From Candidatus Hydrothermota bacterium (GTDB lineage: Bacteria; Hydrothermota; Hydrothermia; B15-G9; DRBW01), in NCBI GenBank assembly GCA_021158525.1, contig JAGGUL010000079.1:1-60294 (forward strand): a stretch of 60,294 nt of DNA. Direction: 5' to 3'. This document shows, piece by piece, positions 7,740 to 60,294 of the stretch; the stretch's first letter is position 1; every line of letters starts with the position of its first letter. The notes under the pieces were generated by a model that saw only the letters and a list, made by a program, of their open reading frames with translations, did not search any database and was not told the origin of the DNA. The translations under genes were made by a program, and so were the position numbers.

Positions 7740-7966
7740 GGGTTTCGCCCAGTCGTGATATAGGGCACGCTTCGGCCTCCATACAATTAAAAGACCAACT
7801 CCGGGATGTAAACAGTGTAAACAAATCATTTTGAATCAAGTTTTGCCATGAAGAATCTAAATTACAACTGCATTAACTTAAATATCATTGCATTACTAAA
7901 TTACTCCCGGGGGTTCTGATTATTGCAAATAGCACCTCTACTGAATCTTCCGCTCTTTAAAGATTT

Positions 7967-10339
7967 TTATCTCTTATGTAATTCATCTGAGAAAAATTTA
8001 AGTTCACAAGGAATAGGAGGAGGACCGCCATAAAAAAGATATTTAGCTAGATATATCAGGTCTGCTATGGTAACATCACAATCACCATTGACATCACCCG
8101 AAAGTAATGGGGTAGGAGCAGGGCCGCCACTATAAAGATACTTAAAAAGATAAACCAAATCTGTATGATTAACCAAATTGTCTCTGTTACAATCGCCTGG
8201 AATTTCAATAAATTCATTCTTAATCCAAATAGTGTCTGTAAAAGTCCCAGTGAATCCAGAATCTACAAGAATTGTTAAATAACCGTTGTTTTGAAGCCAA
8301 TCAGTAAGGATTCTATAACATGAATGCGCAGAATGGGATACTCCTCGATGTAGAAAAACTTCGTCATGCTGAGGATCTGCGATCTCAATTCCCAAATCGT
8401 ATAATTTTTCTTCTCCCCAGTTATCAATTTGAATGCCAACACTTGGAATAATTTCACATAGTGTAGATTCCGCTGAATCAACTTCCAAATTTTTTAGATT
8501 ATACACGATTTCGGTGCCTACATTCGAAACTATTGTGCACAAATGATAGCATTTAGCTTCAACATCAGGATTTATTAAAGCTACCGTTTTCCCATCACCC
8601 TTATAGTGTATTTTTTCTTTCTGCGAACTGTCAACGTCAAAGCGAAAACAGTGAAAAGATGTCCCTTCAGGAGTAAACAAACTAAAATAGAAAGCGCTAT
8701 CTCTTATATGAGTATACTCACATAGCCAATCTTCATCTTGGAGCATGAGCGGGTAGCCAAGAATTGCAATGCAGGAGTCAAGAAAATAGTAATTTAAATA
8801 TGTGGATTGATAGAAAGCTTCCTCCGCGGGATAAGCTATAATTCCGATATTTTGTCCTCCAAGATCTATATACATTTCAGGTGTAGATAAATATTCATCA
8901 ACAGGCTCCATCAAGAAAAGTCCTCTCCCGGTATCCCCTCCCCATATATAGGACCAAGAATTAAGTATTGTATCTACTCTTACACGAATTGGTATATCAG
9001 ATTGCACCGTATCGGGATATCCAGGGCAACAATAAACTGTATCAGTTCCAGGCCAGATATTGTCATATACCCAAATATATTTTATGTGAGAGCTATCAGG
9101 AGAGATATTTGTAGTAATCTTGACAGGATTAACAAAATGTGGAATACTTGGTGGGGAGGGCCATATACACAGTGTTCGGTGAATCTTCTGATCGCTATTC
9201 AGCATTTCAATAATTTTAGTTATCGTTTGATTCGGGGTTACGAGAATATATTGTTCAATCAAGGAGTTGATATGTTGCCATCCAAATCCATGAGTGTAGT
9301 ACATATTGGCTACTTGACGCGCACATGTCATTGGACAAGAATCACCAACTGGAACATCAAAAAGTCTGTAATACCCTGGGAAAAACATCTCTAAATTTAG
9401 CAAATTATCAAAAAATAAATAGCATGAAGTAGCCATACCCAGGCATGAACCCCACCAGTTAGTAGAATCAGGATATTGGGATGGTGGATGGTTTACTAAT
9501 CGGGATAGACACCACCTAAAAACAGCATATGGCCTGTAAATTACCCTTCCCGGAGGGGGATCAAAATAACATTGATCCTCGCCGAAAGCTGCAACCCAAA
9601 GAGTCCAACTTGGGAAATCAGAATTTCTTATGTTAAATATGGATGTTAAACGACGAAATTGCCTGTTGTATTCGCTGTAATTCTCCCAGCACTGATTAGG
9701 CCACATATATATGAAATAAGAATCAGGATCTGCATGAACAAAGTTGTCTAAATAATAATTAGGGAATCCCCAGCCATCTCTATTTATCTGAAACGTATAG
9801 ATTGTAAAAGCACTGTCACTTGTATCTGCTGGTTCCATATCATACGCATCATAGATTCTAATCAAACAACTGTCAGAGTCATAAATCCATGGTACTTCCC
9901 AAGTGTAAGAACAACTGGATGCAGGAACTTCTGCTATAAAATCCCATGTAACACCGCAGTCAACTGAGTACTCTATTCTAACATTCCCGGGGATGTTTAC
10001 AAAATTCCAAATAATATCGTGCTCAGAGCCCATGTACCAATATTCTCCTCCATTCGGCGAAATTAAAGTTAGATCTTCTGGAAGTGGCCTAAATTGTCCT
10101 ATTGGAGATGATTGGCCCAAAGAGAAATTCAGTTTATAGACGCTCTTTAGCAGTTCTCCCCCCTCATCCAGAGTCTGTGTTTTAAAATGATAACCTGAGA
10201 TTCCAGTTCGTGTTGACCGTTCTGAAATTGTATAAATATAACCCCAGTGTCCAATTGTGTTTGCAAAAGTCGTGGTGGAATACACTAGAAAAATGCTGAA
10301 TAAAACATACCTGAGAATTTTAAAGAAATTTATCTTCAT
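7967..10339 (-). CDS. Secreted protein with C-terminal dockerin-like repeats
   Basis: A signal peptide (FFKILRYVLFSIFLVYSTTTFA) is preceded by AGGGAGG. Near residue 90 lies a 'LISPNGGEYWYMGSEHDIIW' module of the kind found in many exported proteins (Kre9/Knh1-like beta sandwich). The middle, about 500 residues with many Trp, Tyr and Cys, I do not recognise. The C-terminus has two Ca-binding dockerin-type repeats ('GDCNRDNLVNHTDLVYLFKY' and 'GDVNGDCDVTIADLIYLAKY'). Dockerins bind cohesins or act as Ca-stabilised tails; no cohesin is visible in this window. Unlike the other large secreted proteins here it lacks the YDVSGR sorting tail. The DNA is clearly AT-richer than the flanks, suggesting separate acquisition. 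It follows the 10373 gene by 33 nt, probably co-transcribed. Confidence 0.75.
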   Translation of the reverse strand: MKINFFKILRYVLFSIFLVYSTTTFANTIGHWGYIYTISERSTRTGISGYHFKTQTLDEGGELLKSVYKLNFSLGQSSPIGQFRPLPEDLTLISPNGGEYWYMGSEHDIIWNFVNIPGNVRIEYSVDCGVTWDFIAEVPASSCSYTWEVPWIYDSDSCLIRIYDAYDMEPADTSDSAFTIYTFQINRDGWGFPNYYLDNFVHADPDSYFIYMWPNQCWENYSEYNRQFRRLTSIFNIRNSDFPSWTLWVAAFGEDQCYFDPPPGRVIYRPYAVFRWCLSRLVNHPPSQYPDSTNWWGSCLGMATSCYLFFDNLLNLEMFFPGYYRLFDVPVGDSCPMTCARQVANMYYTHGFGWQHINSLIEQYILVTPNQTITKIIEMLNSDQKIHRTLCIWPSPPSIPHFVNPVKITTNISPDSSHIKYIWVYDNIWPGTDTVYCCPGYPDTVQSDIPIRVRVDTILNSWSYIWGGDTGRGLFLMEPVDEYLSTPEMYIDLGGQNIGIIAYPAEEAFYQSTYLNYYFLDSCIAILGYPLMLQDEDWLCEYTHIRDSAFYFSLFTPEGTSFHCFRFDVDSSQKEKIHYKGDGKTVALINPDVEAKCYHLCTIVSNVGTEIVYNLKNLEVDSAESTLCEIIPSVGIQIDNWGEEKLYDLGIEIADPQHDEVFLHRGVSHSAHSCYRILTDWLQNNGYLTILVDSGFTGTFTDTIWIKNEFIEIPGDCNRDNLVNHTDLVYLFKYLYSGGPAPTPLLSGDVNGDCDVTIADLIYLAKYLFYGGPPPIPCELKFFSDELHKR

Positions 10340-10372
10340 GAAATTCCTCCCTTAACAACTTACTACGGCCAT

Positions 10373-11215
10373 TCATTGATTTTTAAGAATGCGCACACGA
10401 ACATAATTCCATCGCTTGTGTTCAGGCATAACTACTGCATTGTCATCAGATGCACGATGTACAGTGATTGAACTATCAGTGAGATCATACCACTCAAGAC
10501 CTACCTCATACCATACTAAATTGTATCGAAATGATGCAGTTCCAAAATTAGCTCGATGGATAGGGAAACCATTTTGGTTAGGACTACCTTCGACACAAAC
10601 TATATACTTACTTATATCCCCACCTAAGTTGTGGTGAAGTACTCTTGCCTGCCCTGCAGAGATATGTACCCATCCAGAATTGTAGTCAAACTTAAATTTT
10701 ATGGGGGCATTAACTCGCAAAGTATCGGAAATATAAGCTTTGCCTTCTACATCAAGATCATAGGCTGGTAAATTTTTCCCTATCCCTACCTTACCTCCGG
10801 TGTAATACAGGTCGCCGTTGTTCTTTTTTGTCCAGTCATAATCAGTGAATGCATAGGCTACACTCGTTATCCTTGTTCTGGGGAAAACCTGCCCTGGTGG
10901 TGTATTTATCGTTACTTCAAGCCAGCGATTAGCGCTGTTGAAAGTCACCTCGGGAATCTCGGCAATTGAGCCTAAAAGTACGTTGAACACACCCGAATCA
11001 ACCAGAACTGAATCATGATCCTCAGACCAAAGAAGAGTTCCGTTAGTCGAATCATCGTAGATCTTAAACGTGATATCAAAAGTTCCATGTAGCGGATTCC
11101 CCTCATTGTCCGTTAGATAACCCTGGAAATTGATCATTTGAGGCACAACACTCTGAGCTGCCAATACTGCTTGCAGTGCAAGTATTATTACTCCACACAT
11201 TGCGTAACTCCTCAT
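10373..11215 (-). CDS. Exported protein with tail-fibre-like repeat region
   Basis: The start was placed at the ATG at 11215, which has a strong ribosome binding site (CGAGGAGGTGTCAA); the track's upstream start would put 27 polar residues before the signal peptide. From there: signal peptide (MCGVIILALQAVLAAQ), then 'INFQGYLTDNEGNPLHG' with 'FNVLLGS' and 'RITSVAYAF', a module repeatedly seen in exported proteins of uncultured bacteria. A short 'GKVGIGKNLPAYDLDVEGKA' tail-fibre-like motif (a DLDV-repeat signature) follows, then a C-terminal domain of about 110 residues of unknown function. Surface adhesion or structure is a plausible role but is inference. It shares the AT-rich composition of its downstream dockerin neighbour. 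Confidence 0.65.
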   Translation of the reverse strand: MRSYAMCGVIILALQAVLAAQSVVPQMINFQGYLTDNEGNPLHGTFDITFKIYDDSTNGTLLWSEDHDSVLVDSGVFNVLLGSIAEIPEVTFNSANRWLEVTINTPPGQVFPRTRITSVAYAFTDYDWTKKNNGDLYYTGGKVGIGKNLPAYDLDVEGKAYISDTLRVNAPIKFKFDYNSGWVHISAGQARVLHHNLGGDISKYIVCVEGSPNQNGFPIHRANFGTASFRYNLVWYEVGLEWYDLTDSSITVHRASDDNAVVMPEHKRWNYVRVRILKNQ

Positions 11216-11602
11216 TTGACACCTCCTCGTTTGAGCTTGCAAAACACCAAATGTACATACAAAATGCTTTTTGCGATCTCCATATAACTGTGACACTTCA
11301 ATTTAAAAAGGGAAGCTGCAATCTTATTTCAGGGGAAATTTACAGGTCCTTTTGAGAAATGATAGACCAGAAATGGTGAAAAAGTAACATCCGTGGATAG
11401 CATCATTCCTGATATAGCTACTACAAAGAACCGTTTGAGAGAAATATGAAAGGTAGGAAAATACTGAACGACTGTAAATAGACCCGCGACATCGACATAT
11501 CCCCTGAAATAACAATACTTTACACATTCATGCCCCCTATGATTTCTCTATAAAGCCTCCTTTACATTTTGTCAAGTCAATCACCAGAAAATCATACCCC
11601 CC
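11216..11602 (-). other. Gap of 387 bases between the tail-fibre-like gene and the ZIP gene
   Basis: No convincing gene was found. The 67-residue track ORF (11324..11527) has no ribosome binding site or family features and coincides with an inverted-repeat element. The right end near 11216-11300 must hold the promoter of the 11215 gene, but I see no clear -35/-10 pair. Confidence 0.5.
11323..11512. repeat. Small element bounded by 13-bp inverted repeats, MITE-like
   Basis: TTATTTCAGGGGA at 11324-11336 is matched by its exact reverse complement at 11500-11512, about 163 bp apart. Just outside both ends is CAAT (11319-11322 and 11513-11516), a possible 4-bp target duplication. A second shorter inverted pair, TTTACAG/CTGTAAA, lies inside. 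There is no transposase. This looks like a non-autonomous element or its remnant, but with one copy visible the call is tentative. Confidence 0.35.
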
Positions 11603-12824: not shown

Positions 12825-13520
12825 TCACCTCCCCTTTCCGCGACCGGAAAATGCCTTAAGAAGGGAATCGAGCTCAGCCTCTTTGAGAAATTGAGCCCGG
12901 TATTCCCCACCTGCTTCCCCGATCCTCTCGACAAACGAACGAAGGTGGTTGATCGATCCTCTCCTGAGATTTTCATAGACCCTGGAAATGTCCGCCTTGT
13001 CAGTCTTCAAAAGCAGCTCATTGAGGTCTCTGATATCCAGTTCCTCGATCGTCGCCCCAACGATCAGGGCATCGAGAAGGGACTTCTTTCCCCTTTTGAT
13101 AAGCTCATCGTGAAGCTTCGTGAACTCTGGATCGGAAAATTCCCCAACAGCTTTAGATTTCACAGGATCATCGAGGCCATAGGCATCGAGAAGCCCTTTG
13201 ACCGCCGCCATGTGCCTTTCCTCGGACGAAGCGATACTCCTGAATATTGGGATCTCCCAAAGCTCGTGGAGTTTCAGGTAAACGTCTCTTGCCAGTTTTT
13301 CCTCTTCTCTCATCTTCAGAAGGCCCCTGGCTTCATCGGCCGTCAGTGTGTCAAGGGGAACTTCCTCAATGTGATCGCCGGGGTCAATTTCTGGAGGAGC
13401 TTCTTCGGTAATTGCCTCGACGTCCTCCTCGAATTCTCCCGGAACGCTCTGACACATCCCTCGATTCCCCTGAAAAAAGGCGAACAACAGGGCAAATAAC
13501 AGGGCTTTTTCCCTCATCAT
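12825..13520 (-). CDS. DUF2202 ferritin-like domain protein, exported
   Basis: The start is the ATG at 13520 behind AAGGAGGAAC. A signal peptide (ALLFALLFAFFQG) and an acidic linker precede a DUF2202 domain: 'EARGLLKMREEEKLARDVY', 'FRSIASSEERHMAAVKGLL' and, near the C-terminus, 'INHLRSFVERI'. The Glu and His positions in these helices are those of a ferritin-like four-helix bundle that may bind metal. The biological role of DUF2202 is not established. It follows the PBP1C fragment by 46 nt and is followed by the VOC gene with 4 nt spacing. Confidence 0.8.
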   Translation of the reverse strand: MMREKALLFALLFAFFQGNRGMCQSVPGEFEEDVEAITEEAPPEIDPGDHIEEVPLDTLTADEARGLLKMREEEKLARDVYLKLHELWEIPIFRSIASSEERHMAAVKGLLDAYGLDDPVKSKAVGEFSDPEFTKLHDELIKRGKKSLLDALIVGATIEELDIRDLNELLLKTDKADISRVYENLRRGSINHLRSFVERIGEAGGEYRAQFLKEAELDSLLKAFSGRGKGR

Positions 13521-13566: not shown

Positions 13567-15222
13567 TCAATCGAGAACCCTGAAATGGACCGTGTCGCTT
13601 CTACCAGCCCCCATAAGAACCAGCTCATGCTCTCCCGGCGATAGCTGCCAGCGGATGGTAAAAGGAGCCCTGCTCCTGAAGATGCCCCTGCCGTCGATCA
13701 TCCACTCGACCTCCCTGACGCCGTAAGGAACGAGAGCCCTGAACTCGAGGGCCTGAAAAGACCTCCTTAGAAAGGGATCGATTATGAAAACGTCGCCCTC
13801 GTCGGGATGGATTATCCTGAGGGCAAAGCTCGTATCGACTTCCTTCGCAGCCACCCGCTGTTCCTCGAGGGGTTCTCCCCTATCCGCACCGATGTACTGT
13901 CCCCAGGCCCTGAATTCCGGGGGGTAGCGGATAGCTACCCTGTCACCCTCAGGCCCATGAACCAGATAATGCCAATCACAGGTATCCTTCGGCTCAGTGC
14001 CCTTTATGAACCATTCCAATCTCTTTCCCTCACAGTGAGGTCCTGCGAGCTTACCCGATAAGGTACAGATAGTAGCCCTGACGAGACCACGGGGAACCGG
14101 AAAGGGCCGGGGCGGCTCCTTCCTGTGAAGGTACAACATCACATCTCGAAAAATCGGTCCCGCCCCCGTAATCCCTGAAACCCCGTGCATAGGTTCTCCT
14201 GAGAAATTGCCGACCCAGACTCCCACGGTGTATTTCGTCGTGTATCCCACAGTCCAGTTATCCCTGTAATCCTTTGAAGTCCCCGTTTTGACGGCACAGG
14301 GAAAGGGAAGGTCGAGGGGGCTGTTATCGCCGAAAGCCGGAGCCCTGGCCTCCCCGTCGGAGAGGATATCGGTGAGCAAAAAGGCGATCTGCCGGGAAAA
14401 TACGATCTTAGAGCTATCTTCCTCCTCAGAATCAAGCGAATCACCGTCGTCAAGCAAAAAGCGAAGAGGGGTATAGACGCCTCCCATCGCGAGGGCACGG
14501 TAAGCCCTGACCAGCTCGTAGAGCCTCACCTCTCCCGCTCCAAGGGTCAGGGCGAGGCCATAGTACCCCGGCTCTTTATCGAGCGAACTGAACCCAGCTC
14601 TGTGGAGCCTCTCCAGCAGGACTTCGGGTCCAAATCTCTCGAGCACCCTGACGGCGGGCACGTTATATGAACAGGCGAGGGCCTGCCTCAACCTGACAGG
14701 ACCGTGATAACTCTCGTCGTAGTTTCTCGGGGTGAAATCTCCGTATCCCGTGCTGACAAAGGAAGGATTGTCGGGAATTATAGAGGCGGGAGTCATGCCG
14801 CTCTCTAAGGCAATCCCGTACGTAAAGGGCTTCAACGCAGATCCCGGCTGCCTCAGGGCAAGCACGCCGTCCACCTGTCCATCGTGAAGGGTGTCAAAGG
14901 GGTCGGCCGATCCCACCCAGGCCAGAATTTCTCCGCTCTCGTTGTCCACGACGAGAATCGCCCCGTTGGTCACGTTTTTATCCTCAAGCGACTTCACGTA
15001 TGCCCTCAATATCGACTCACAGGCCTTCTGTATCCTGAGGTCGAGGGTGGTCTTCACTTCTCCCCCGACAGCGACCTCCCTCCGTCGGATCTGTCGCAAT
15101 ACGTATTCGACGAAATGGGGGGCCTCGAAGTTTTTATCAGGGAGAACCAGTTCGATATCCTGGGCCATCGCCCTTCTGAAAGAGCTCTCGTCGATAAATC
15201 CCCTCTCCAGCATGAGCCTCAA
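13567..15222 (-). pseudogene. pbpC: Penicillin-binding protein 1C fragment lacking the glycosyltransferase half
   Basis: The transpeptidase half is intact: 'PGSALKPFTYGIAL' (SxxK), 'ACSYNVPAVRVL' (SxN) and 'KTGTSKDYRDNW' (KTG), followed by a PBP1C-type C-terminal domain ('LRIIHPDEGDVF...'). The N-terminal anchor and GT51 glycosyltransferase domain are missing. PbpC-like coding continues in frame upstream of the TTG at 15222 ('LAGIPRGPSYLNPYFHFDRA') to about 15303. There it meets, without a gap, the middle of an alpha-2-macroglobulin gene read in another frame. PbpC normally lies downstream of that gene. A deletion or an assembly join is the simplest explanation. With no start codon or membrane anchor the product is probably not functional. 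Confidence 0.75.
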
Positions 15223-15269
15223 TATGTGTTCCTGACGCCTTTTTGCCCTGTCAAAATGGAAATAAGGGT

Positions 15270-17216
15270 TTAAATAAGAGGGCCCGCGCGGAATGCCCGC
15301 CAGATCACGCTGTAAAACTTATCAAGGGTTGGATTCCAGTCATAGCGCAGGTGAAAACGATAGGGTTCTATTCCCCAATCCCATTCCGAGGAGAGAAAAG
15401 AAAAATCTCCACCCTTCTTTATGAAAACCCAGAACTCCGGTGGACGCCAGCTGTTGGGCCTGTTTATACCCAGCTTCGCCCAGCCCGGTGCGCGAACGAG
15501 TCCCTCTCCGTCGCTTTCCCCGCTCCACAACGTTCTGTTGGACTTATCCCTGACCTCCACAAAGGCGCCCGAGAGAGGCCTGCCCGTCCTCAGGTCATTG
15601 ACATAAACAACCATATCGGCAGGGGAATACTTCAGAGAGGCGTCCAATCCTGTAACTTGAAGAAGGGCCTTGCGATAACGTTCATTCCACTGCCCGTCCC
15701 TGTAGGGCAATTGCAGGAGCACGATGCCCGCTGAGTCGCCCTGAAGCGCGAGGTCGAGATTTAGTGGGTATCTGTATCTTCTGTTCCGGGGTAGGGAGGG
15801 AGAAATAACCGTATCAACCAGAAAGGTTACTCCGGGCGGGCTGAAGTCATTACGGAAGAAGCTCCCGATCCAGTCAAAGGCCTCCTCGGCACTGAGAAAG
15901 AGGGGTATCACCTCATCGGGATAGATGCGCGCCATCTGCAGCCTGAAAGAATTGATGTTGATGAGCTCGACGGGATATCTATGGGGCTCGTAGGACTCCA
16001 CTATGCCGTGTCCGATCTTGAAAAGAAGGTCCGGCCTGAAATCCCCCGTTCTGAAGGTAAAGATCGCCCTTTTCCCCAGCCTGTTGCCGTAGACGTCGAC
16101 GAGGGTCTCAGGGATCGTCACCCTGTAAAGGGTGTCGGGCAGGAGCTTTAGATCGAAGGACGGATGCGTAGAGCCCCTGTTTCTGTCAGCGGTTCTGTAA
16201 TAATCGGGGATTTCAACGGGAGGATCGAACGTCAAACTCAGGGCAAGCAGGGCGGAATTGACGGGATTGGAGAAAACAAACCTTATCGGCCTGTCGGGGC
16301 TCTGTCTCTCGCCTTCACTTATAAGTTTCCCCGACTGGTCGCGGGTCTCAACCCGCTCAATGCCCCAAAATTCGAATCTGTTATAGGTCCTGAAATAAAA
16401 GGCTGCTCCCGCTCCTGGTAAGTCTCCTTCCGCCCCCTTTATTCCTTTTTTGACCTTCACCTTATAGTAGGTGCTTCTCTTTAAAGGTCTTCCCGGATAA
16501 AGCACGAAGACTCGCTTTCTCAGGTTCTCCTGTATTTCCTCCCTCGTAATTTTCCTGTAATCATGGACAAACCTCGGAAGGTGCCTTCTGGACAGATCCC
16601 ACCAATACGTATATCCTCTCGAAAAATCCTGTATCCATTCCCAGTCCTCTCCCCTGGGATCGGGAGACAGGTAGCGAAGCGTGTACTTAACTGACCTCCT
16701 GCCCGATTCCAGCAGCTTGATATACCTGCCCGCCCTCGCCGAATCCATGGGCTGGTTGAAAAACAGGAAGATCGGCCGTTTTATGCCCACGAGGCTTTCC
16801 TGACCGCAGGGGATCGAGAAGATCAGCTTCGGCGCGGGAGTGCTGAAAGTCCACACATAATCCTCCCTCAACTCGTGCCCCCTCACCGACCTCACACCCG
16901 CAGGCACCCTCACCCTGAACTCCGTCGCATATGGCAATGAATCAGCCGGCTCAAAGGCCAGCATCATCGTCCCCAACCACCTCAACTTTCCCTCTATCGG
17001 CGGCTCTATCTCAAGAGGGAAACTTACCTCCCCAGTAAGGGCACTCAGCGGCACCATAGGCTCGCTGAAAACTACCAGTGCCATGTTCGCCTGCGAGAGG
17101 GACTCGATGCTCCCACGGGGAACCGCATTCAGTATCCTGAGTCCCTCCTCATCGGCTTCTCCAGCATGGAGGAGGACAACAATCCCTGTCAGAAGGAACA
17201 ACAAAAACTTCCTCAT
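15270..17216 (-). CDS. Bacterial alpha-2-macroglobulin, truncated N-terminal part
   Basis: The ATG at 17216 follows GGGAGGTGATT; the track's GTG is 6 nt earlier. A signal peptide (FLLFLLTGIVVLLHAG) is followed by Ig-like and macroglobulin domains ('MALVVFSEPMVPLSAL', 'RVRVPAGVRSVRGHEL', 'FRTGDFRPDLLFKIGHG', 'VYVNDLRTGRPLSGAFVEV'). Full-length bacterial family members are roughly 1,500-1,900 residues and trap proteases in the periplasm with PBP1C. This one stops at about 649 after 'DKFYSVIW', just where the conserved 'DR-YRPG' segment should come. The last residues before its stop are PbpC coding sequence read out of frame. No thioester or bait region remains, so function is doubtful. Confidence 0.75.
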   Translation of the reverse strand: MRKFLLFLLTGIVVLLHAGEADEEGLRILNAVPRGSIESLSQANMALVVFSEPMVPLSALTGEVSFPLEIEPPIEGKLRWLGTMMLAFEPADSLPYATEFRVRVPAGVRSVRGHELREDYVWTFSTPAPKLIFSIPCGQESLVGIKRPIFLFFNQPMDSARAGRYIKLLESGRRSVKYTLRYLSPDPRGEDWEWIQDFSRGYTYWWDLSRRHLPRFVHDYRKITREEIQENLRKRVFVLYPGRPLKRSTYYKVKVKKGIKGAEGDLPGAGAAFYFRTYNRFEFWGIERVETRDQSGKLISEGERQSPDRPIRFVFSNPVNSALLALSLTFDPPVEIPDYYRTADRNRGSTHPSFDLKLLPDTLYRVTIPETLVDVYGNRLGKRAIFTFRTGDFRPDLLFKIGHGIVESYEPHRYPVELININSFRLQMARIYPDEVIPLFLSAEEAFDWIGSFFRNDFSPPGVTFLVDTVISPSLPRNRRYRYPLNLDLALQGDSAGIVLLQLPYRDGQWNERYRKALLQVTGLDASLKYSPADMVVYVNDLRTGRPLSGAFVEVRDKSNRTLWSGESDGEGLVRAPGWAKLGINRPNSWRPPEFWVFIKKGGDFSFLSSEWDWGIEPYRFHLRYDWNPTLDKFYSVIWRAFRAGPLI

Positions 17217-17237
17217 AATCACCTCCCTGCTATTTGA

Positions 17238-17332: not shown

Positions 17333-18730
17333 ATGAGACCTTCAGCATCTGCCCTTTTCGTTCTCACCCTATTTCTGAGCTCCTGCGCCACCCTGAGCAC
17401 CATAAGGCGGAGAAAACCGGAGAAAGCGATCCCCTTAGAAGCCTTGCAGGAGGCACCTGAAGGGGCCACCGTGGGCATTTATGCCGTATCGATGAGGAAC
17501 GGGCGCGAGATAGCGTCCTATAACGCGGATAAGCTCCTCCTTCCAGCGTCTAACCTGAAGCTCCTCGTGCTCTATGCCGCTCTCGATCTCTTAGGCCCTG
17601 CGAAGAACTTCAGGACGGAGTTCCTTCTGGACGATTCGCTGAACCTCTACATGGTGGGTTTCGGGGACCCTTCGCTTCTCGCCTCCGACCTTTACATGAT
17701 AGCCGAGAGGATAAAGGCCTTCGGAATAAACCGGATAATGGACATCCGCGTGTCGGAATCTTTTTACGACACGATCAGGTATGGGCCGGGCTGGATGTGG
17801 GATGAAGGGCCCCATCCCTATGCCGCACCGGTATCCGCATTGTCCCTGAACAGAAACGTGGTAGAAGTGTGGGTACGGAATACAGAAACGGGACCCGTCG
17901 CGGAGGTGGTGCCCGCGACCGATTTCGTGCGGGCCGCGGTCGAGGTGACACCGGCGGAGTCCCTCGATAAGGTCGAAGTGGAGAGGAGCTTCGATACGGT
18001 AAACAACATAACCCTCAGGATTCCCGAAGACGCTCTGGATTTCGAGCCCCACGTTAAGTACGTCAGCATTGAGGAGCCGGCCCTCTTCGCCGGCCACGTG
18101 CTGAAAGGTGCCCTGGAACGCTCCGGTATGGAGGTTGAGGGAAAAGTCCTGAAAGGCGATCCGCCGCCCGATGCTTCCCTCATCTATACATGGCTCTCCC
18201 CTCCCCTTTTCGAGCTCCTCTATGACATGGAAAAGTACAGCCTGAATTTCTACTCCGAGATGATCCTGAAATACATCGGCGCCGAGTTCCGGGGACCGCC
18301 GGGGACCTGGAGCAAAGGACTGTCGGTACTCAAGCAGTTCATTTACGAGAGGGGTCTCGACACGTCGGGGGTCCGCATAGCCGACGGGTCGGGCCTTTCA
18401 CGCTATAACCTGTTGACTCCCCGCTTCATAGTTCAGATACTCGCCTCTGTCTATGAAAATTTCTCCATAATGCCCGAATTCCTTTCCGCGCTTCCCGTGG
18501 CGGGGAGAGATGGGACTCTGGCAATGAGGTTCCTGGACACACCGCTCGAGGATAACCTGCGCGCTAAAACCGGCACCATGACCGGTGTTTCGGCCCTCTC
18601 GGGATATATGTATACGGAAAAGGGAGACCTGCTTGCATTCTCGATCATCATCAATAACTACACCTCGGGGGGCGAGAAAGCGAAGTCCTTCGAGGAAAAG
18701 CTCCTGGAAGCGCTCTACGAGTCTGACTGA
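17333..18730 (+). CDS. dacB: D-alanyl-D-alanine carboxypeptidase/endopeptidase (PBP4, peptidase S13), lipoprotein
   Basis: The 465-residue protein trims or cleaves peptidoglycan cross-links in the periplasm. A lipoprotein signal ('FVLTLFLSSC') precedes the S13 fold. The three catalytic motifs are present: 'LLPASNLKLLVLYAA' (SxxK), 'YSLNFYSEM' (SxN) and 'RAKTGTMTGVSALSGY' (KTG). The long insert typical of PBP4 lies between the first two motifs. The length is normal for the family. A lipoprotein form of PBP4 is less common than the soluble one. The stop overlaps the start of the PrsW gene (TGATG), suggesting co-translation. Confidence 0.9.
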   Translation: MRPSASALFVLTLFLSSCATLSTIRRRKPEKAIPLEALQEAPEGATVGIYAVSMRNGREIASYNADKLLLPASNLKLLVLYAALDLLGPAKNFRTEFLLDDSLNLYMVGFGDPSLLASDLYMIAERIKAFGINRIMDIRVSESFYDTIRYGPGWMWDEGPHPYAAPVSALSLNRNVVEVWVRNTETGPVAEVVPATDFVRAAVEVTPAESLDKVEVERSFDTVNNITLRIPEDALDFEPHVKYVSIEEPALFAGHVLKGALERSGMEVEGKVLKGDPPPDASLIYTWLSPPLFELLYDMEKYSLNFYSEMILKYIGAEFRGPPGTWSKGLSVLKQFIYERGLDTSGVRIADGSGLSRYNLLTPRFIVQILASVYENFSIMPEFLSALPVAGRDGTLAMRFLDTPLEDNLRAKTGTMTGVSALSGYMYTEKGDLLAFSIIINNYTSGGEKAKSFEEKLLEALYESD

Positions 18731-28899: not shown

Positions 28900-30720
28900 A
28901 TGAGGTGGACGATTTTGATTCTATGGATCAGTTCCTTCCCCGCTTTTGCCATGCATTTCAACCTGAAATCCCAAATAAACGATGGACCGGGTGCTGGCAA
29001 TCTACTTATTGGTGATACGGACGGAGATGGTAAACCAGAACTGATTTTTTATTCCTGTCTTCAGGAGTGCGGAGTAAATATCTACGAATTCGATGGTGGA
29101 ACATGGGGAAATACCTATAGCATTGGCACAGGATTTTTACCTGTCTATGGCCTCGGGTTACTCGATGGCGATAGCCTCTACGATTTATGGCTCCAACACT
29201 ATGATACCCTCTGCCTCTTTGAAAGCCCTACACCCTACTCTTTCCCTATACAAAAGGTTTGGACATCCCCTTATAACGGCACATATAACTTCCATTACCA
29301 GATGGACATGAAAGATATGGACAACGACGGCAAAATCGACATCGTCGACGCCGGTGAAGGCCCTTTCTCCACATACAACCTTTGTATCTATGAAAACAAT
29401 GGAGATAACTCCTTCGACATCGTCTTCTATGATACAACTTTGATCGTCTGGGGTAGCAGACCCGCCCTCTGTGACTATGATGGTGACGGCAAAATGGAGA
29501 TCGCCATAGGTACCCTTGAGAACCATGCCCTTTTTATCGAAAATACCGGAAATAACTCCTATGAACTCTGCTGGGAGATGCCCCTTTCATCTCTGATCGA
29601 CAGCGTACCTGTGGGTTACCTTCTGGATGTCTTTGCGTGTCCCGATTCTCTCCCCGATATGGACGGTGATGGCAAGAGAGAGGTCGTCTTTCATCCAAAA
29701 TCCACTTCTGCTGTGAATCCATGCCAGTGGCGCGAAGATGTTGTCATCCTGGAAGCTGACGGTGACAATAGCTACAGACTTTCATGGTATGACTCCCTCC
29801 CCGGCTACTCATGGTCTGGTAGCTGGCCACACGGACATAACCTACTGCGTTCAACTATTGCAGATATCGATGGTGATACAACGCCCGAAATACTGCTCTC
29901 TGTTGCTCATAAAGTCTACATCCTCAAAGCCACATCTAACGATAACTACCAGCTTGCTGGCGAAATATACCTCACACCCCTCGTCGGCGCACCTATGGAC
30001 GAATACATGGACGAACTTTATATCACAGCTTGGGATTTAGATAACAACGGCCTCAATGAAATTATCACGGGAATAGTCTATGAAGATAATCAACACTACA
30101 GCCACAAAAAGATTCTCATTTTTGAGAAGGGCATAGACCTCCAGTGGATATACCCCAACTCCACTGACACTCTCACCGCCAACTCACACATCACACTCAA
30201 GTGGAACATCCTCGATCACTCCGCCGTGGACTCATGCTTCATCTTCCTCTCCTCCCCCTATAACCCACATAACAAACAACTCATCTTCTCAGGCTCCCCA
30301 TCCGATACTTCCTTCACCTGGACAGTCCCCGACTCCCTCGGCTGGTTCAAACTCATGCTCCTCGCCACTGGACCTGGTATCCCCCCAAGAAGAGACTCCC
30401 TCTTCTCCTCACCCTTCTTCATACTCACCGACGTCAAGGAAAATCAAAACCTGCCCCTCATCCCCCACGGCCTCTCGGTAAAACCATCCAATCCTGCTTC
30501 TTTGCCCCTTTCCATCTGCTTTTATGTGGACAGGCCTGAAGATGTCAGGTTGTATGTTGTGGATGTGAGTGGGAGGGTGCTGAAGAGGTTCAGGGGGTTG
30601 AGGAGGGGTTACAATGAGGTGAGGTGGAGTGGTGAGGGAGAGGTGTGCAATGGAGTGTATTATGTGGTGCTGGAGGTTGGGGGTGAGAGGCACATCAGGA
30701 GGGTGGTGCTGGTGCAGTGA
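28900..30720 (+). CDS. FG-GAP/VCBS-like secreted protein with type IX-style sorting domain
   Basis: ATG 28900 behind GAGGAGGTTTG (606 residues; the track's TTG start is 6 nt earlier). A signal peptide precedes repeats with Ca-binding loops of the FG-GAP/VCBS type: 'IGDTDGDGKPEL', 'MDNDGKIDIVD', 'CDYDGDGKMEIAIG', 'DMDGDGKREVV', 'DIDGDTTPEI'. This is the seven-bladed integrin-alpha-like propeller, used for surface binding. A sandwich domain and the sorting tail follow ('VRLYVVDVSGRVLKRF'). The tail DNA from about 30530 onward abruptly switches from C-rich to G-rich on the coding strand. The ligand is unknown. Confidence 0.85.
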   Translation: MRWTILILWISSFPAFAMHFNLKSQINDGPGAGNLLIGDTDGDGKPELIFYSCLQECGVNIYEFDGGTWGNTYSIGTGFLPVYGLGLLDGDSLYDLWLQHYDTLCLFESPTPYSFPIQKVWTSPYNGTYNFHYQMDMKDMDNDGKIDIVDAGEGPFSTYNLCIYENNGDNSFDIVFYDTTLIVWGSRPALCDYDGDGKMEIAIGTLENHALFIENTGNNSYELCWEMPLSSLIDSVPVGYLLDVFACPDSLPDMDGDGKREVVFHPKSTSAVNPCQWREDVVILEADGDNSYRLSWYDSLPGYSWSGSWPHGHNLLRSTIADIDGDTTPEILLSVAHKVYILKATSNDNYQLAGEIYLTPLVGAPMDEYMDELYITAWDLDNNGLNEIITGIVYEDNQHYSHKKILIFEKGIDLQWIYPNSTDTLTANSHITLKWNILDHSAVDSCFIFLSSPYNPHNKQLIFSGSPSDTSFTWTVPDSLGWFKLMLLATGPGIPPRRDSLFSSPFFILTDVKENQNLPLIPHGLSVKPSNPASLPLSICFYVDRPEDVRLYVVDVSGRVLKRFRGLRRGYNEVRWSGEGEVCNGVYYVVLEVGGERHIRRVVLVQ

Positions 30721-56720: not shown

Positions 56721-57429
56721 TTCCCCCCTTTTTACCAAGGACGTAAAGAGCTATCGCCGTGCTGGAGCTCACGTTTAGCGAGCTAACTTTCCCGTACATG
56801 GGTATAGTGAGCACGAAATCTGCTATTTTGAGCAAACTCTTCCTCACCCCGCTGCCCTCAGACCCGGCTATTAGGGCCAGAGGAAAGGCGACATCCACGC
56901 TTTCTATGTCGTCTCCGCCGGTTTCAAGGGCGGCGATCCACAGACCTTTTTCCCTGTATTTAAGGAGAAATGAGGCGAGGCCATCCCTCCTGGCTATGGG
57001 AATGTGAAAGGCTGCTCCTGCCGAGGCCCTCACCACCGCCTCGCTCAAAGGGACGCTTCTCGACTTGCTCATGATGATACCAGTGACGCCAAAAGCTTCT
57101 GCCGTCCTTATTATGTTGCCCGCGTTCTGAGGGTCCTGGATCCCGTCGAGAACCAGGACCAGGCCCCTTTCCCTCAGCGCCCTCTCGACTATACTCTCCG
57201 CCGAAACCAGCGGGACCTCTGGAATTACGGCTATAATCCCCTGGTGGTGCAGGCCACCGGAGAGGGCATCGAGCTTCGCCCTGGGCACCACCTGAACTTT
57301 AACTCCTTTCTCCTCGATCAGCTCTGCAAGCCTCCGGGGGAGGTGGGTGTTTTTCGCAACAAGTATCTTTTCCACCTCGAGGTCGCCTCTGAGGGCCTCC
57401 TCCACGCTATGTCTGCCCACCGCGAGCAA
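56704..57429 (-). CDS. rlmB: 23S rRNA 2'-O-methyltransferase RlmB (TrmH/SpoU family)
   Basis: The 241-residue knotted methyltransferase methylates a ribose of 23S rRNA (G2251 by E. coli numbering). A substrate-binding N-terminal part ('AVGRHSVEEAL') precedes the SpoU motifs: 'VLDGIQDPQNAGNIIRTAEAFG' (motif 1), 'ALIAGSEGSGV' (motif 2) and 'IPMYGKVSSLNVSSSTAIALY' (motif 3). Family rRNA/tRNA target is inferred. It lies 2 nt after the macro-domain gene and is the last gene of the operon rlmI-fabD-macro-rlmB. Confidence 0.9.
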   Translation of the reverse strand: MLAVGRHSVEEALRGDLEVEKILVAKNTHLPRRLAELIEEKGVKVQVVPRAKLDALSGGLHHQGIIAVIPEVPLVSAESIVERALRERGLVLVLDGIQDPQNAGNIIRTAEAFGVTGIIMSKSRSVPLSEAVVRASAGAAFHIPIARRDGLASFLLKYREKGLWIAALETGGDDIESVDVAFPLALIAGSEGSGVRKSLLKIADFVLTIPMYGKVSSLNVSSSTAIALYVLGKKGGINRPE

Positions 57430-57431
57430 CG

Positions 57432-57953
57432 CTAAAGTCCCTCTTCGAATTCTGCCCCGGCTTTAAGAAGTCCCTTTTTAAACTCTTTATAGGCAGCCTG
57501 ATCGTACAGGACGAAGATAACCTCCTCAGGGTATTCCTGATCGTTAAATTTCGACACCTCTTCATACATTATTTCGGCAGCCCTTTGATAGGGAAATCCA
57601 CCCACACCGGTGCCCAGGGCGGGGAAAGCAACGCTTTTCATTTTCATCTCCACAGCTCGCTTCATGGCGTTCCGCGTGGCTTTTCTTATCTTATCCTCGT
57701 CGGTCCTGAAGTCCATCCCCATAGTAGCCCCGTGAATCACATACTTCGCCTTGAGCTTTCCCGCTCCCGTGACGACGGCCTCTCCGATTTCTATGGGCCC
57801 CTTCTCCATCGCCTCCTTTTCTATCTCACGCCCACCCTTACGCCTTATGGCTCCCGCAACACCGCCCCCCATGATGAGCCTGTTGTTGGCGGCGTTGACG
57901 ATCGCATCTACATCGAGCTCGGTTATATCGCCCTTTATCAGCCTGATCTTCAT
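57432..57953 (-). CDS. Macro-domain (O-acetyl-ADP-ribose deacetylase-like) protein
   Basis: The 173-residue single macro domain has 'IVNAANNRLIMGGGVAGAIRRKGG' (the ADP-ribose-binding loop), 'YVIHGATMGMD' and 'SVAFPALGTGVGGFPYQRAA'. The family binds or hydrolyses ADP-ribose derivatives. The role in bacteria is uncertain: detoxification or removal of ADP-ribose marks. It lies between fabD and rlmB with 2-4 nt gaps. Confidence 0.9.
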   Translation of the reverse strand: MKIRLIKGDITELDVDAIVNAANNRLIMGGGVAGAIRRKGGREIEKEAMEKGPIEIGEAVVTGAGKLKAKYVIHGATMGMDFRTDEDKIRKATRNAMKRAVEMKMKSVAFPALGTGVGGFPYQRAAEIMYEEVSKFNDQEYPEEVIFVLYDQAAYKEFKKGLLKAGAEFEEGL

Positions 57954-57957
57954 CCTC

Positions 57958-58884
57958 TCACCTCCCCTTGAGAGCCGACATAAGGTTCTCTCTATCGGAC
58001 GGTTTTTCGAAGGGATAAAAATTCGCTCCCGGCAGGGTCTTCCTCACGAGCCCACACAACACCTTGCCGGGGCCAATCTCAATAAATCCGGTAACTCCAA
58101 GTTCCCTTGCCGAGTTGAGGGTATCGACGAACAGCACGGGACTGAGAAGCTGCTTCTTTAAATTTTCCCTGATCACATCGACATCATCGGTGGGCTTTCC
58201 CAGTGCATTGGGGATCACCGGTACGCGTGGGGAATTGAATCTGACGCCGTCCAGCACCTTCTCGAACTCCGCAGCGGCCTCTTTCATCAGCGGGGAATGG
58301 AAGGCTGCCGACACTTTGAGCATCACGGCTTTTCTCGCGCCCATCTCTTTTGCGAGGCGAACAGCTTCCTCGAGCTCGTCCTTAGCACCCGACAGCACCA
58401 CCTGCTCCGGCGAGTTGATGTTCGCGAGAACGACGTTGTCGAATTTTTCCGCGATTTCTTTCAGTTTACCGATCTCCAGGCCTATTATAGCGGCCATAGC
58501 CCCCGGCCACTTCTCGCCAGCTTTCGCCATGAGCTCACCCCTCGCCTTGACTAGCTTGAGAGCATCCTCGAACGTGAAGACAGAAGCGGCGTAAAGGGCG
58601 CTGAACTCGCCCAGGCTGTGCCCGAAAACCACGCCGGGCTCCAGATCTTTCAAAGCTTCGAGGGCCATGGCCTCGACCACGAAAAGGGCCGGCTGGGTAT
58701 ACCTGGTGTCGGTGAGCTTCTCCATGGGACCCTCGAAGCAGAGCTCGCGAAGGGGCAGACCTGTTATTTCTTCCGCCTTTAACATGAGCTCCCGCGCGGC
58801 CTCAAGCTCATCGTATAATTCTCTGCCCATCCCCACTTTCTGGGAGCCCTGTCCCGGAAACATAAAAGCGATCTTGCTCATCAT
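57958..58884 (-). CDS. fabD: Malonyl-CoA:ACP transacylase
   Basis: The 308-residue enzyme loads malonyl onto acyl carrier protein for fatty-acid synthesis. Motifs: 'FMFPGQGSQKVGMGRELYD' (N-terminus), 'VVFGHSLGEFSALYAAS' (catalytic Ser in GHSLG) and 'AAFHSPLMKEAA' (catalytic His). Length and motifs fit the family. Other fab genes are not in the window. It has a GGAGGACATG ribosome binding site, 4 nt before the macro gene and 9 nt after rlmI. Confidence 0.94.
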   Translation of the reverse strand: MMSKIAFMFPGQGSQKVGMGRELYDELEAARELMLKAEEITGLPLRELCFEGPMEKLTDTRYTQPALFVVEAMALEALKDLEPGVVFGHSLGEFSALYAASVFTFEDALKLVKARGELMAKAGEKWPGAMAAIIGLEIGKLKEIAEKFDNVVLANINSPEQVVLSGAKDELEEAVRLAKEMGARKAVMLKVSAAFHSPLMKEAAAEFEKVLDGVRFNSPRVPVIPNALGKPTDDVDVIRENLKKQLLSPVLFVDTLNSARELGVTGFIEIGPGKVLCGLVRKTLPGANFYPFEKPSDRENLMSALKGR

Positions 58885-58893
58885 GTCCTCCTT

Positions 58894-60060
58894 TTATGTC
58901 GTTTCCTTGAGAACAAATCCTTTTAGATACTCGCTCTCCCTGAACCCCAGGAGAACAGGATGATCCTTTGCCTGACCCAGCCTCTCGAGGAGGACAAAAT
59001 GTCTCCTGAGGTTCATGGCGGGTACCGTGAAACTCTCCAGGAGAGCCTCCCCGGTGATATAATGGGAACAGCTGAAGGTAACTATGTACCCGCCTGGTTC
59101 GAGGAGCCTGATTGCCCTGTCATGGAGGACCTTAAATCCGTTGATCGCCTCCTCCACCTGTCCTTTTTTCCTCGCGAAGGAAGGTGGATCCAGAACGATC
59201 ACATCAAACTTCATCCCTGAGAGCAACATCTCGTCTAAAAACTGAAAGGCCTCCTTTTCTATGGGCACGACTCTCTCCCTTTCGAAGGAATTGAGCGCTA
59301 CGTTCTTCATGAGCAGGGAGAGAGCGCTTTTTGACCTGTCAACTGCGTAAACCCTGGAAAAACCCGCTTTCAGGAGGTGAAGGGTAAATCCTCCAGTGTA
59401 AGAAAAGATGTCCAGTGCTTTAGTTCCCTTCACAAGGGAGACAACTCTTTCCCTATTTTCCCTCTGATCGAAGTAAAAGCCGGTTTTCTGCCCGCCGGCT
59501 ATGTCCACGAGATATTTGAGTCCGCTCACCTCGATCTCGAGGCTCTCGGGGATCTCGCCGTGGTGAAGGCGGTCAGCCAGAGGCAATCCCTCCTCGGCAC
59601 GGAGCGAACTGTCGCCCTTCTCAAAAATAAAGGACGGGGAGAAAAGGTCCTGCAAGGCGTAGATCACGTCTTTTTTGTGGCGCTCCACGCCATAGGAAAG
59701 CACCTGAATCACAAGTCCGTCCCCGTATTTATCGACTACAAGGCCCGGAACCCCGTCGGACTCTCCGAAAAGAACGCGGAAGGAATTCTCTCCGGTATAC
59801 AGAGATCGCCGCCACTCCAGCGCTTTCTCAAGCTTATTCCGCACAAAGTGATAGTCGAACTCGCGTTTCTCCCTGGAATAGAAGCGGAGGACGATCTTCG
59901 AATGGGGATTGAAAAAGGCCGATCCGAGAAACTGCCCACGTGTGGTATAGACCCCGACGCACTCGCCGGGCGAAGCTTCGCCGTCATCGACGAGGCTTTT
60001 GGCGTAGATCCAGGGGTGGAAATAGTACCATTTCTTCCCCTTTACCGTAACCCGTTTCAT
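58894..60060 (-). CDS. RlmI-like 23S rRNA cytosine methyltransferase
   Basis: The 388-residue class I SAM-dependent methyltransferase has an N-terminal PUA-like domain ('VTVKGKKWYYFHPWIYAKSL'), an S-adenosylmethionine region ('KALDIFSYTGGFTLHLLKAGF') and the catalytic site 'VIVLDPPSFARKKG' and 'FSCSHYI' (the latter with the Cys of m5C enzymes). E. coli RlmI makes m5C1962 of 23S rRNA; the site here is inferred. It opens the operon rlmI-fabD-macro-rlmB and is predicted leaderless. Confidence 0.88.
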   Translation of the reverse strand: MKRVTVKGKKWYYFHPWIYAKSLVDDGEASPGECVGVYTTRGQFLGSAFFNPHSKIVLRFYSREKREFDYHFVRNKLEKALEWRRSLYTGENSFRVLFGESDGVPGLVVDKYGDGLVIQVLSYGVERHKKDVIYALQDLFSPSFIFEKGDSSLRAEEGLPLADRLHHGEIPESLEIEVSGLKYLVDIAGGQKTGFYFDQRENRERVVSLVKGTKALDIFSYTGGFTLHLLKAGFSRVYAVDRSKSALSLLMKNVALNSFERERVVPIEKEAFQFLDEMLLSGMKFDVIVLDPPSFARKKGQVEEAINGFKVLHDRAIRLLEPGGYIVTFSCSHYITGEALLESFTVPAMNLRRHFVLLERLGQAKDHPVLLGFRESEYLKGFVLKETT

Positions 60061-60067
60061 CGGGTGA

Positions 60068-60097
60068 ATTCTACCGCCAGGGCACGGCCAAATTCAA
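60068..60097 (-). promoter_or_regulatory. Promoter for the rlmI-fabD operon, predicted leaderless
   Basis: On the minus strand: TTGAAT (60097-60092), 18-bp spacer, TAGAAT (60073-60068), then 7 nt to the ATG at 60060. No Shine-Dalgarno sequence is present. Confidence 0.55.
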
Positions 60098-60102
60098 CCC
60101 GA

Positions 60103-60124
60103 GGGCGTATCGGCAGGTACGCCC
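60103..60124. terminator. Short hairpin between the two minus-strand genes
   Basis: GGGCGTA and its complement TACGCCC are separated by 8 nt; a TTT follows on the + strand. It is too weak to call a strong terminator on the minus strand, but lies just beyond the stop of the partial gene and before the rlmI promoter. Confidence 0.35.
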
Positions 60125-60166
60125 TTTCAAAGTGCCACTGCTTTCTCTTACAAGTTGAATCTGCCT

Positions 60167-60294
60167 TCAACCGGAAATTCTTTTCCCCATCGATAGCACT
60201 ATGGCTTTCATGAAAGGGAAATAGGACCTGTCAAAACAGAAATCCCTTTCTATCTCCCACGCTTCAAAAGCAAAAGTTTCCTCGTCTCCCTGAC
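60167..60294 (-). CDS. C-terminal end of an unidentified protein (partial, runs off the window)
   Basis: The last 41 codons of a minus-strand reading frame enter from the right edge: 'GDEETFAFEAWEIERDFCFD' and 'MKAIVLSMGKRISG', ending in TGA at 60167-60169. No start is visible and I do not recognise the family. The composition is ordinary coding and the following hairpin and promoter are consistent with it being a real gene end. Confidence 0.5.
   Translation of the reverse strand, partial: QGDEETFAFEAWEIERDFCFDRSYFPFMKAIVLSMGKRISG

Follow-up and report, generated by a model that had tools for sequence, protein, structure and literature searches.

An out-of-frame join between truncated A2M and pbpC genes in a WOR-3-type genome suggests a recent deletion

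Within a 60,294-nucleotide stretch of DNA (hereafter, the window) from the draft genome of an uncultured WOR-3-type bacterium, the front of a bacterial alpha-2-macroglobulin (A2M) gene runs directly into the back of a pbpC gene in another reading frame. This raises the question of whether the lineage has lost most of both genes or whether the assembly has lost the DNA between them. The genome comprises 1,996,111 bases in 129 contigs and is 97.1% complete. The pairing of a2m with pbpC and a proposed role in periplasmic defence have been published: A2M is proposed to inhibit proteases entering the periplasm, and PBP1C to repair peptidoglycan (PMC5764988). A reading made from the letters alone (the sequence-only reading) had offered a real deletion and a misassembly as alternatives. 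The evidence now leans toward a real and recent deletion, with an artefact kept as its rival.

The A2M frame occupies positions 15270–17222 on the minus strand and, according to the list of open reading frames (ORFs), encodes 650 amino acids ending in ...DKFYSVIW-RAFRAGPLI*. Based on Pfam, this piece includes Big_5 (1.8e-21) and bMG3 (5.3e-13) domains; its N-terminus is hydrophobic and signal-peptide-like, and its residues 1–593 share 93% identity with contig C59 of the sister assembly (G001). No bait region or thioester (CxEQ, TED domain) was found, either in the A2M ORF by Pfam or in the window by motif scan. From about 15303 downward, the other frame reads LAGIPRGPSYLNPYFHFDRA..., which is the end of GT51, and PbpC then runs to 13567. 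The PbpC piece (96% amino acid identity to the sister contig L002) matches the transpeptidase (4.7e-22) and BiPBP_C (2.1e-10) families in Pfam and keeps the SALKPF, SYN and KTGTS transpeptidase motifs intact, and its GT51 remnant covers only positions 147–177 of the 178-position profile. Hydropathy analysis of this fragment revealed no hydrophobic stretch that could act as a membrane anchor, an export signal is likewise missing, and there is no clear ribosome-binding site ahead of its first ATGs. The features are listed in Table 1. A Peptidase_S13 gene (D-Ala-D-Ala carboxypeptidase by Pfam; 17333–18730), divergently transcribed, adjoins the remnants, making this a cell-wall gene neighbourhood.

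Table 1. Coordinates of the A2M and pbpC remnants and their junction in the window.
Feature	Position	Strand	Evidence
5' fragment of a bacterial A2M gene, ~640 native residues (Big_5, bMG3)	15303..17222	-	ORF, Pfam, identity to G001:C59, hydropathy
Junction, where A2M-derived bases end and pbpC-derived ones begin; TCT probably shared	15302..15305	-	L002 identity starts at 15304; W in an F/Y column
Frameshift-derived junk tail of the A2M ORF (WRAFRAGPLI, TAA stop)	15270..15302	-	ORF list and sequence
3' fragment of pbpC (PBP1C): last ~31 GT51 positions, complete transpeptidase, BiPBP_C; anchorless	13567..15304	-	Pfam, motifs, hydropathy, L002 identity

Both pieces can be matched to known proteins. 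Like the type I bacterial A2Ms (Escherichia coli YfhM and Salmonella Sa-A2M), the A2M fragment carries N-terminal Big_5 and bMG3 and lies upstream of pbpC on the same strand, but it lacks everything past residue ~640, including the bait region and the thioester domain. The downstream fragment resembles PBP1C (PbpC, a class A penicillin-binding protein) in its SxxK, SYN and KTG transpeptidase, its BiPBP_C domain and its position after A2M, but is without the anchor and nearly all of GT51. Taken together, the two truncated neighbours and their out-of-frame, near-blunt join resemble a deletion pseudogene pair, here a putative one seen in assembled sequence. An A2M-PbpC fusion protein was considered and rejected because the two frames differ.

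The ORFs, Pfam matches and sister alignment all confirm that the A2M frame is joined out of frame to the GT51 end of PbpC, as the sequence-only reading had proposed. Its span for the feature (15222–15321) was right, and its junction, put at about 15300–15306, was correctly placed and is narrowed by the sister alignment to 15302–15305. Sequence derived from pbpC is traceable to 15304 (TCTGGC...), with one difference from L002, at the third base of a codon. On the A2M side, the alignment column that reads W in the window has F or Y in every one of the 23 relatives, so the final W of DKFYSVIW was probably made by the junction itself. The join would thus consist of A2M ...ATCT and pbpC ...GGCGGGC with TCT common to both, an overlap of ~3 bp that makes it nearly blunt. 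Two other anatomies were set aside: deletion through a long direct repeat, which lacks support because L002 and the A2M relatives leave only about 3 shared bases at the breakpoints, and a microhomology of 8–9 bases (CTGGCGGG), because the A2M alignment expects F/Y plus T/S/A at this point rather than W plus R.

What an intact version of the locus looks like can be seen in other public genomes, where A2M followed by pbpC, directly adjacent and on the same strand, occurs at 21 loci; at two further fetched loci the two genes are arranged otherwise. These 21 full-length pairs are the kind of comparison that the sequence-only reading had called for, and they agree with its view that A2M then pbpC is the usual order. 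Full-length A2M relatives also have MG2, bMG5, bMG6, the bait region, A2M, TED and bMG10, with a CLEQ thioester sequence, and full-length PbpC relatives have a GT51 domain. Projecting both fragment ends of the window onto the 21 tandem loci gives a median of 4393 bp of missing DNA (4252–4537 bp, plus one locus at 5290 bp); the original estimate of 3–4 kb therefore fell short of the ~4.4 kb obtained here. What is missing had been named correctly, since the remainder of A2M and the first part of PbpC are intact in the 21 loci and absent from the rest of the window's own genome.

This absence was seen in several searches of that genome. The A2M middle of one fetched locus (L014) yielded no match to the missing half as a query, nor did the Pfam A2M family, for which control genomes, including E. 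coli, were positive. A profile built for the missing region (eight rows) matches G003, G005, G009 and G041 and likewise found nothing in the window's genome. The Pfam GT51 profile revealed no second partial GT51 there, and the only complete GT51 belongs to another class A penicillin-binding protein on contig C98. The missing parts are thus absent elsewhere in the 97%-complete bin, and the intact GT51-bearing protein on C98 makes the loss of pbpC look tolerable.

The nearest relative at this locus is the candidate division WOR-3 isolate HyVt-237 (L002, identical to contig C207 of G001). Approached from the pbpC side, L002 and the window agree as far as 15304, beyond which L002 runs on as intact GT51 to its contig edge; the change is thus confined to this genome or its assembly. 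With the pbpC side intact in HyVt-237, the broken state is derived, in the window's lineage or in its assembly. The A2M contig of the sister ends short of the join, at residue 593 (window position 15442); in G001, the corresponding stretch falls between two contig ends, and the A2M middle is unassembled there. A related genome with an identical junction had been named in the sequence-only reading as a sign of a stable structure; none of 40 relatives or 41 fetched loci has it, and the exact junction pattern had no match in viral contigs, an unlikely place for it.

Relative to G001, dN/dS is 0.156 for the A2M fragment and 0.112 for the PbpC fragment at a dS of about 0.20, and both values lie inside the range of neighbour genes of similar divergence (0.02–0.23). 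Neither fragment contains further stops or frameshifts, and relaxed selection was not seen in either. A simple mixture estimate with a baseline dN/dS of about 0.09 would confine neutral decay to roughly the last tenth of the branch. Based on the lack of extra lesions and the neighbour-like dN/dS, a real deletion would have to be young, and an artefact predicts the same. Relaxed selection is a supporting rather than a defining mark of a deletion pseudogene pair, as a fresh deletion would show no relaxation yet.

Our preferred explanation, to which we assign a probability of about 0.7, is that the lineage of this metagenome-assembled genome recently lost ~4.4 kb in an out-of-frame deletion that destroyed both A2M and pbpC. 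Such a deletion, presumably present in the cells themselves, would have left ~640 codons from the start of a type I-like A2M gene abutting the final ~578 codons of pbpC, removing MG2, MG5, MG6, the bait region, A2M, thioester/TED and MG10 from the former and the anchor and catalytic GT51 region from the latter. The near-blunt join suggests illegitimate, end-joining-like recombination as the mechanism. Both products are predicted to be dead: the A2M stub would be unable to trap a protease, as it has neither bait region nor thioester, and the transpeptidase of the PBP1C stub would remain cytoplasmic without an anchor or export signal. The 21 tandem loci, the intact GT51 in the sister and a bin that contains none of the missing parts support a deletion, and a clean gene-breaking indel in the sister (461 bp, in a DUF2202 gene) supports deletion as a type of event. 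Counted against it are the lack of a second genome with the join, the chance that an unbinned contig carries the intact 4.4 kb, the A2M middle that goes unseen in the closest relative owing to the contig gap in G001, and the lesion-free fragments with ordinary dN/dS, unless the deletion is very recent.

The same locus could have been produced by an assembly or library artefact, in which the intact middle was skipped through a wrong join or a chimeric molecule and now sits in an unbinned or discarded contig. We consider this unlikely, though well short of negligible: the source is a draft assembly of 129 contigs, contigs of the sister assembly likewise end on either side of the corresponding region, the remnants appear to be under normal constraint, and the join is common to no relative. 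However, assemblers that work by read overlaps or k-mer graphs usually demand far more than ~3 shared bases, and one of them would have produced this join only from real molecules that contained it; a near-blunt join speaks against a computed overlap and is compatible with either a chimeric molecule or an end-joining-like deletion. The missing 4.4 kb is also not in the 97%-complete bin, the contig extends 15 kb and 45 kb to either side of the join, and collinear 93% sister matches on both sides come close to the join or right up to it. That the locus is instead a stable rearrangement, with a shortened A2M and a soluble transpeptidase fragment that still function, seems to us highly improbable. 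Both frames are open with ordinary dN/dS, and the transpeptidase motifs are intact, but the join is out of frame and found in no relative, the A2M fragment is without bait and thioester domains, and the PbpC fragment has no anchor, export signal or clear ribosome-binding site before its first ATGs.

A deletion of this kind would be a biologically ordinary event with little significance beyond annotation, where the ORFs should appear as truncated remnants and not under the names of a short A2M or soluble penicillin-binding protein. A real deletion would add one more natural loss of A2M-PBP1C and bear on the dispensability of the pair where another bifunctional penicillin-binding protein is kept. 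A more speculative idea, which we think rather improbable, is that a WOR-3 population has been caught shortly after the one-step loss of its A2M-PBP1C periplasmic defence pair, a loss that may be polymorphic. If true, polymorphic loss would allow a test of whether the genes are lost together because they work only together.

The window and the sister assembly also differ elsewhere. The DUF2202 gene next to the remnants is intact in the window and broken in G001, where ~461 bp of it (window positions 12852–13311) is missing at a near-blunt junction (L002 2154–2156). Another clean size difference between the window's genome and G001, of 279 bp, was found in ~154 kb of aligned sequence. Clean size differences between the two assemblies are thus not rare, and such events or errors form a background. 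Identity to G001 is uneven: it is 92–97% (dS 0.07–0.33) at window positions 1–22000 and 57400–60294, 83–87% (dS mostly 0.6–1.2) at 30500–56600, and ~82% over most of the sampled genome. This pattern points either to blocks exchanged recently or to two populations mixed in the G001 bin. At 7779–11599, the window has 3.8 kb with two ORFs (790 and 307 amino acids) where contig C204 of G001 has 109 bp.
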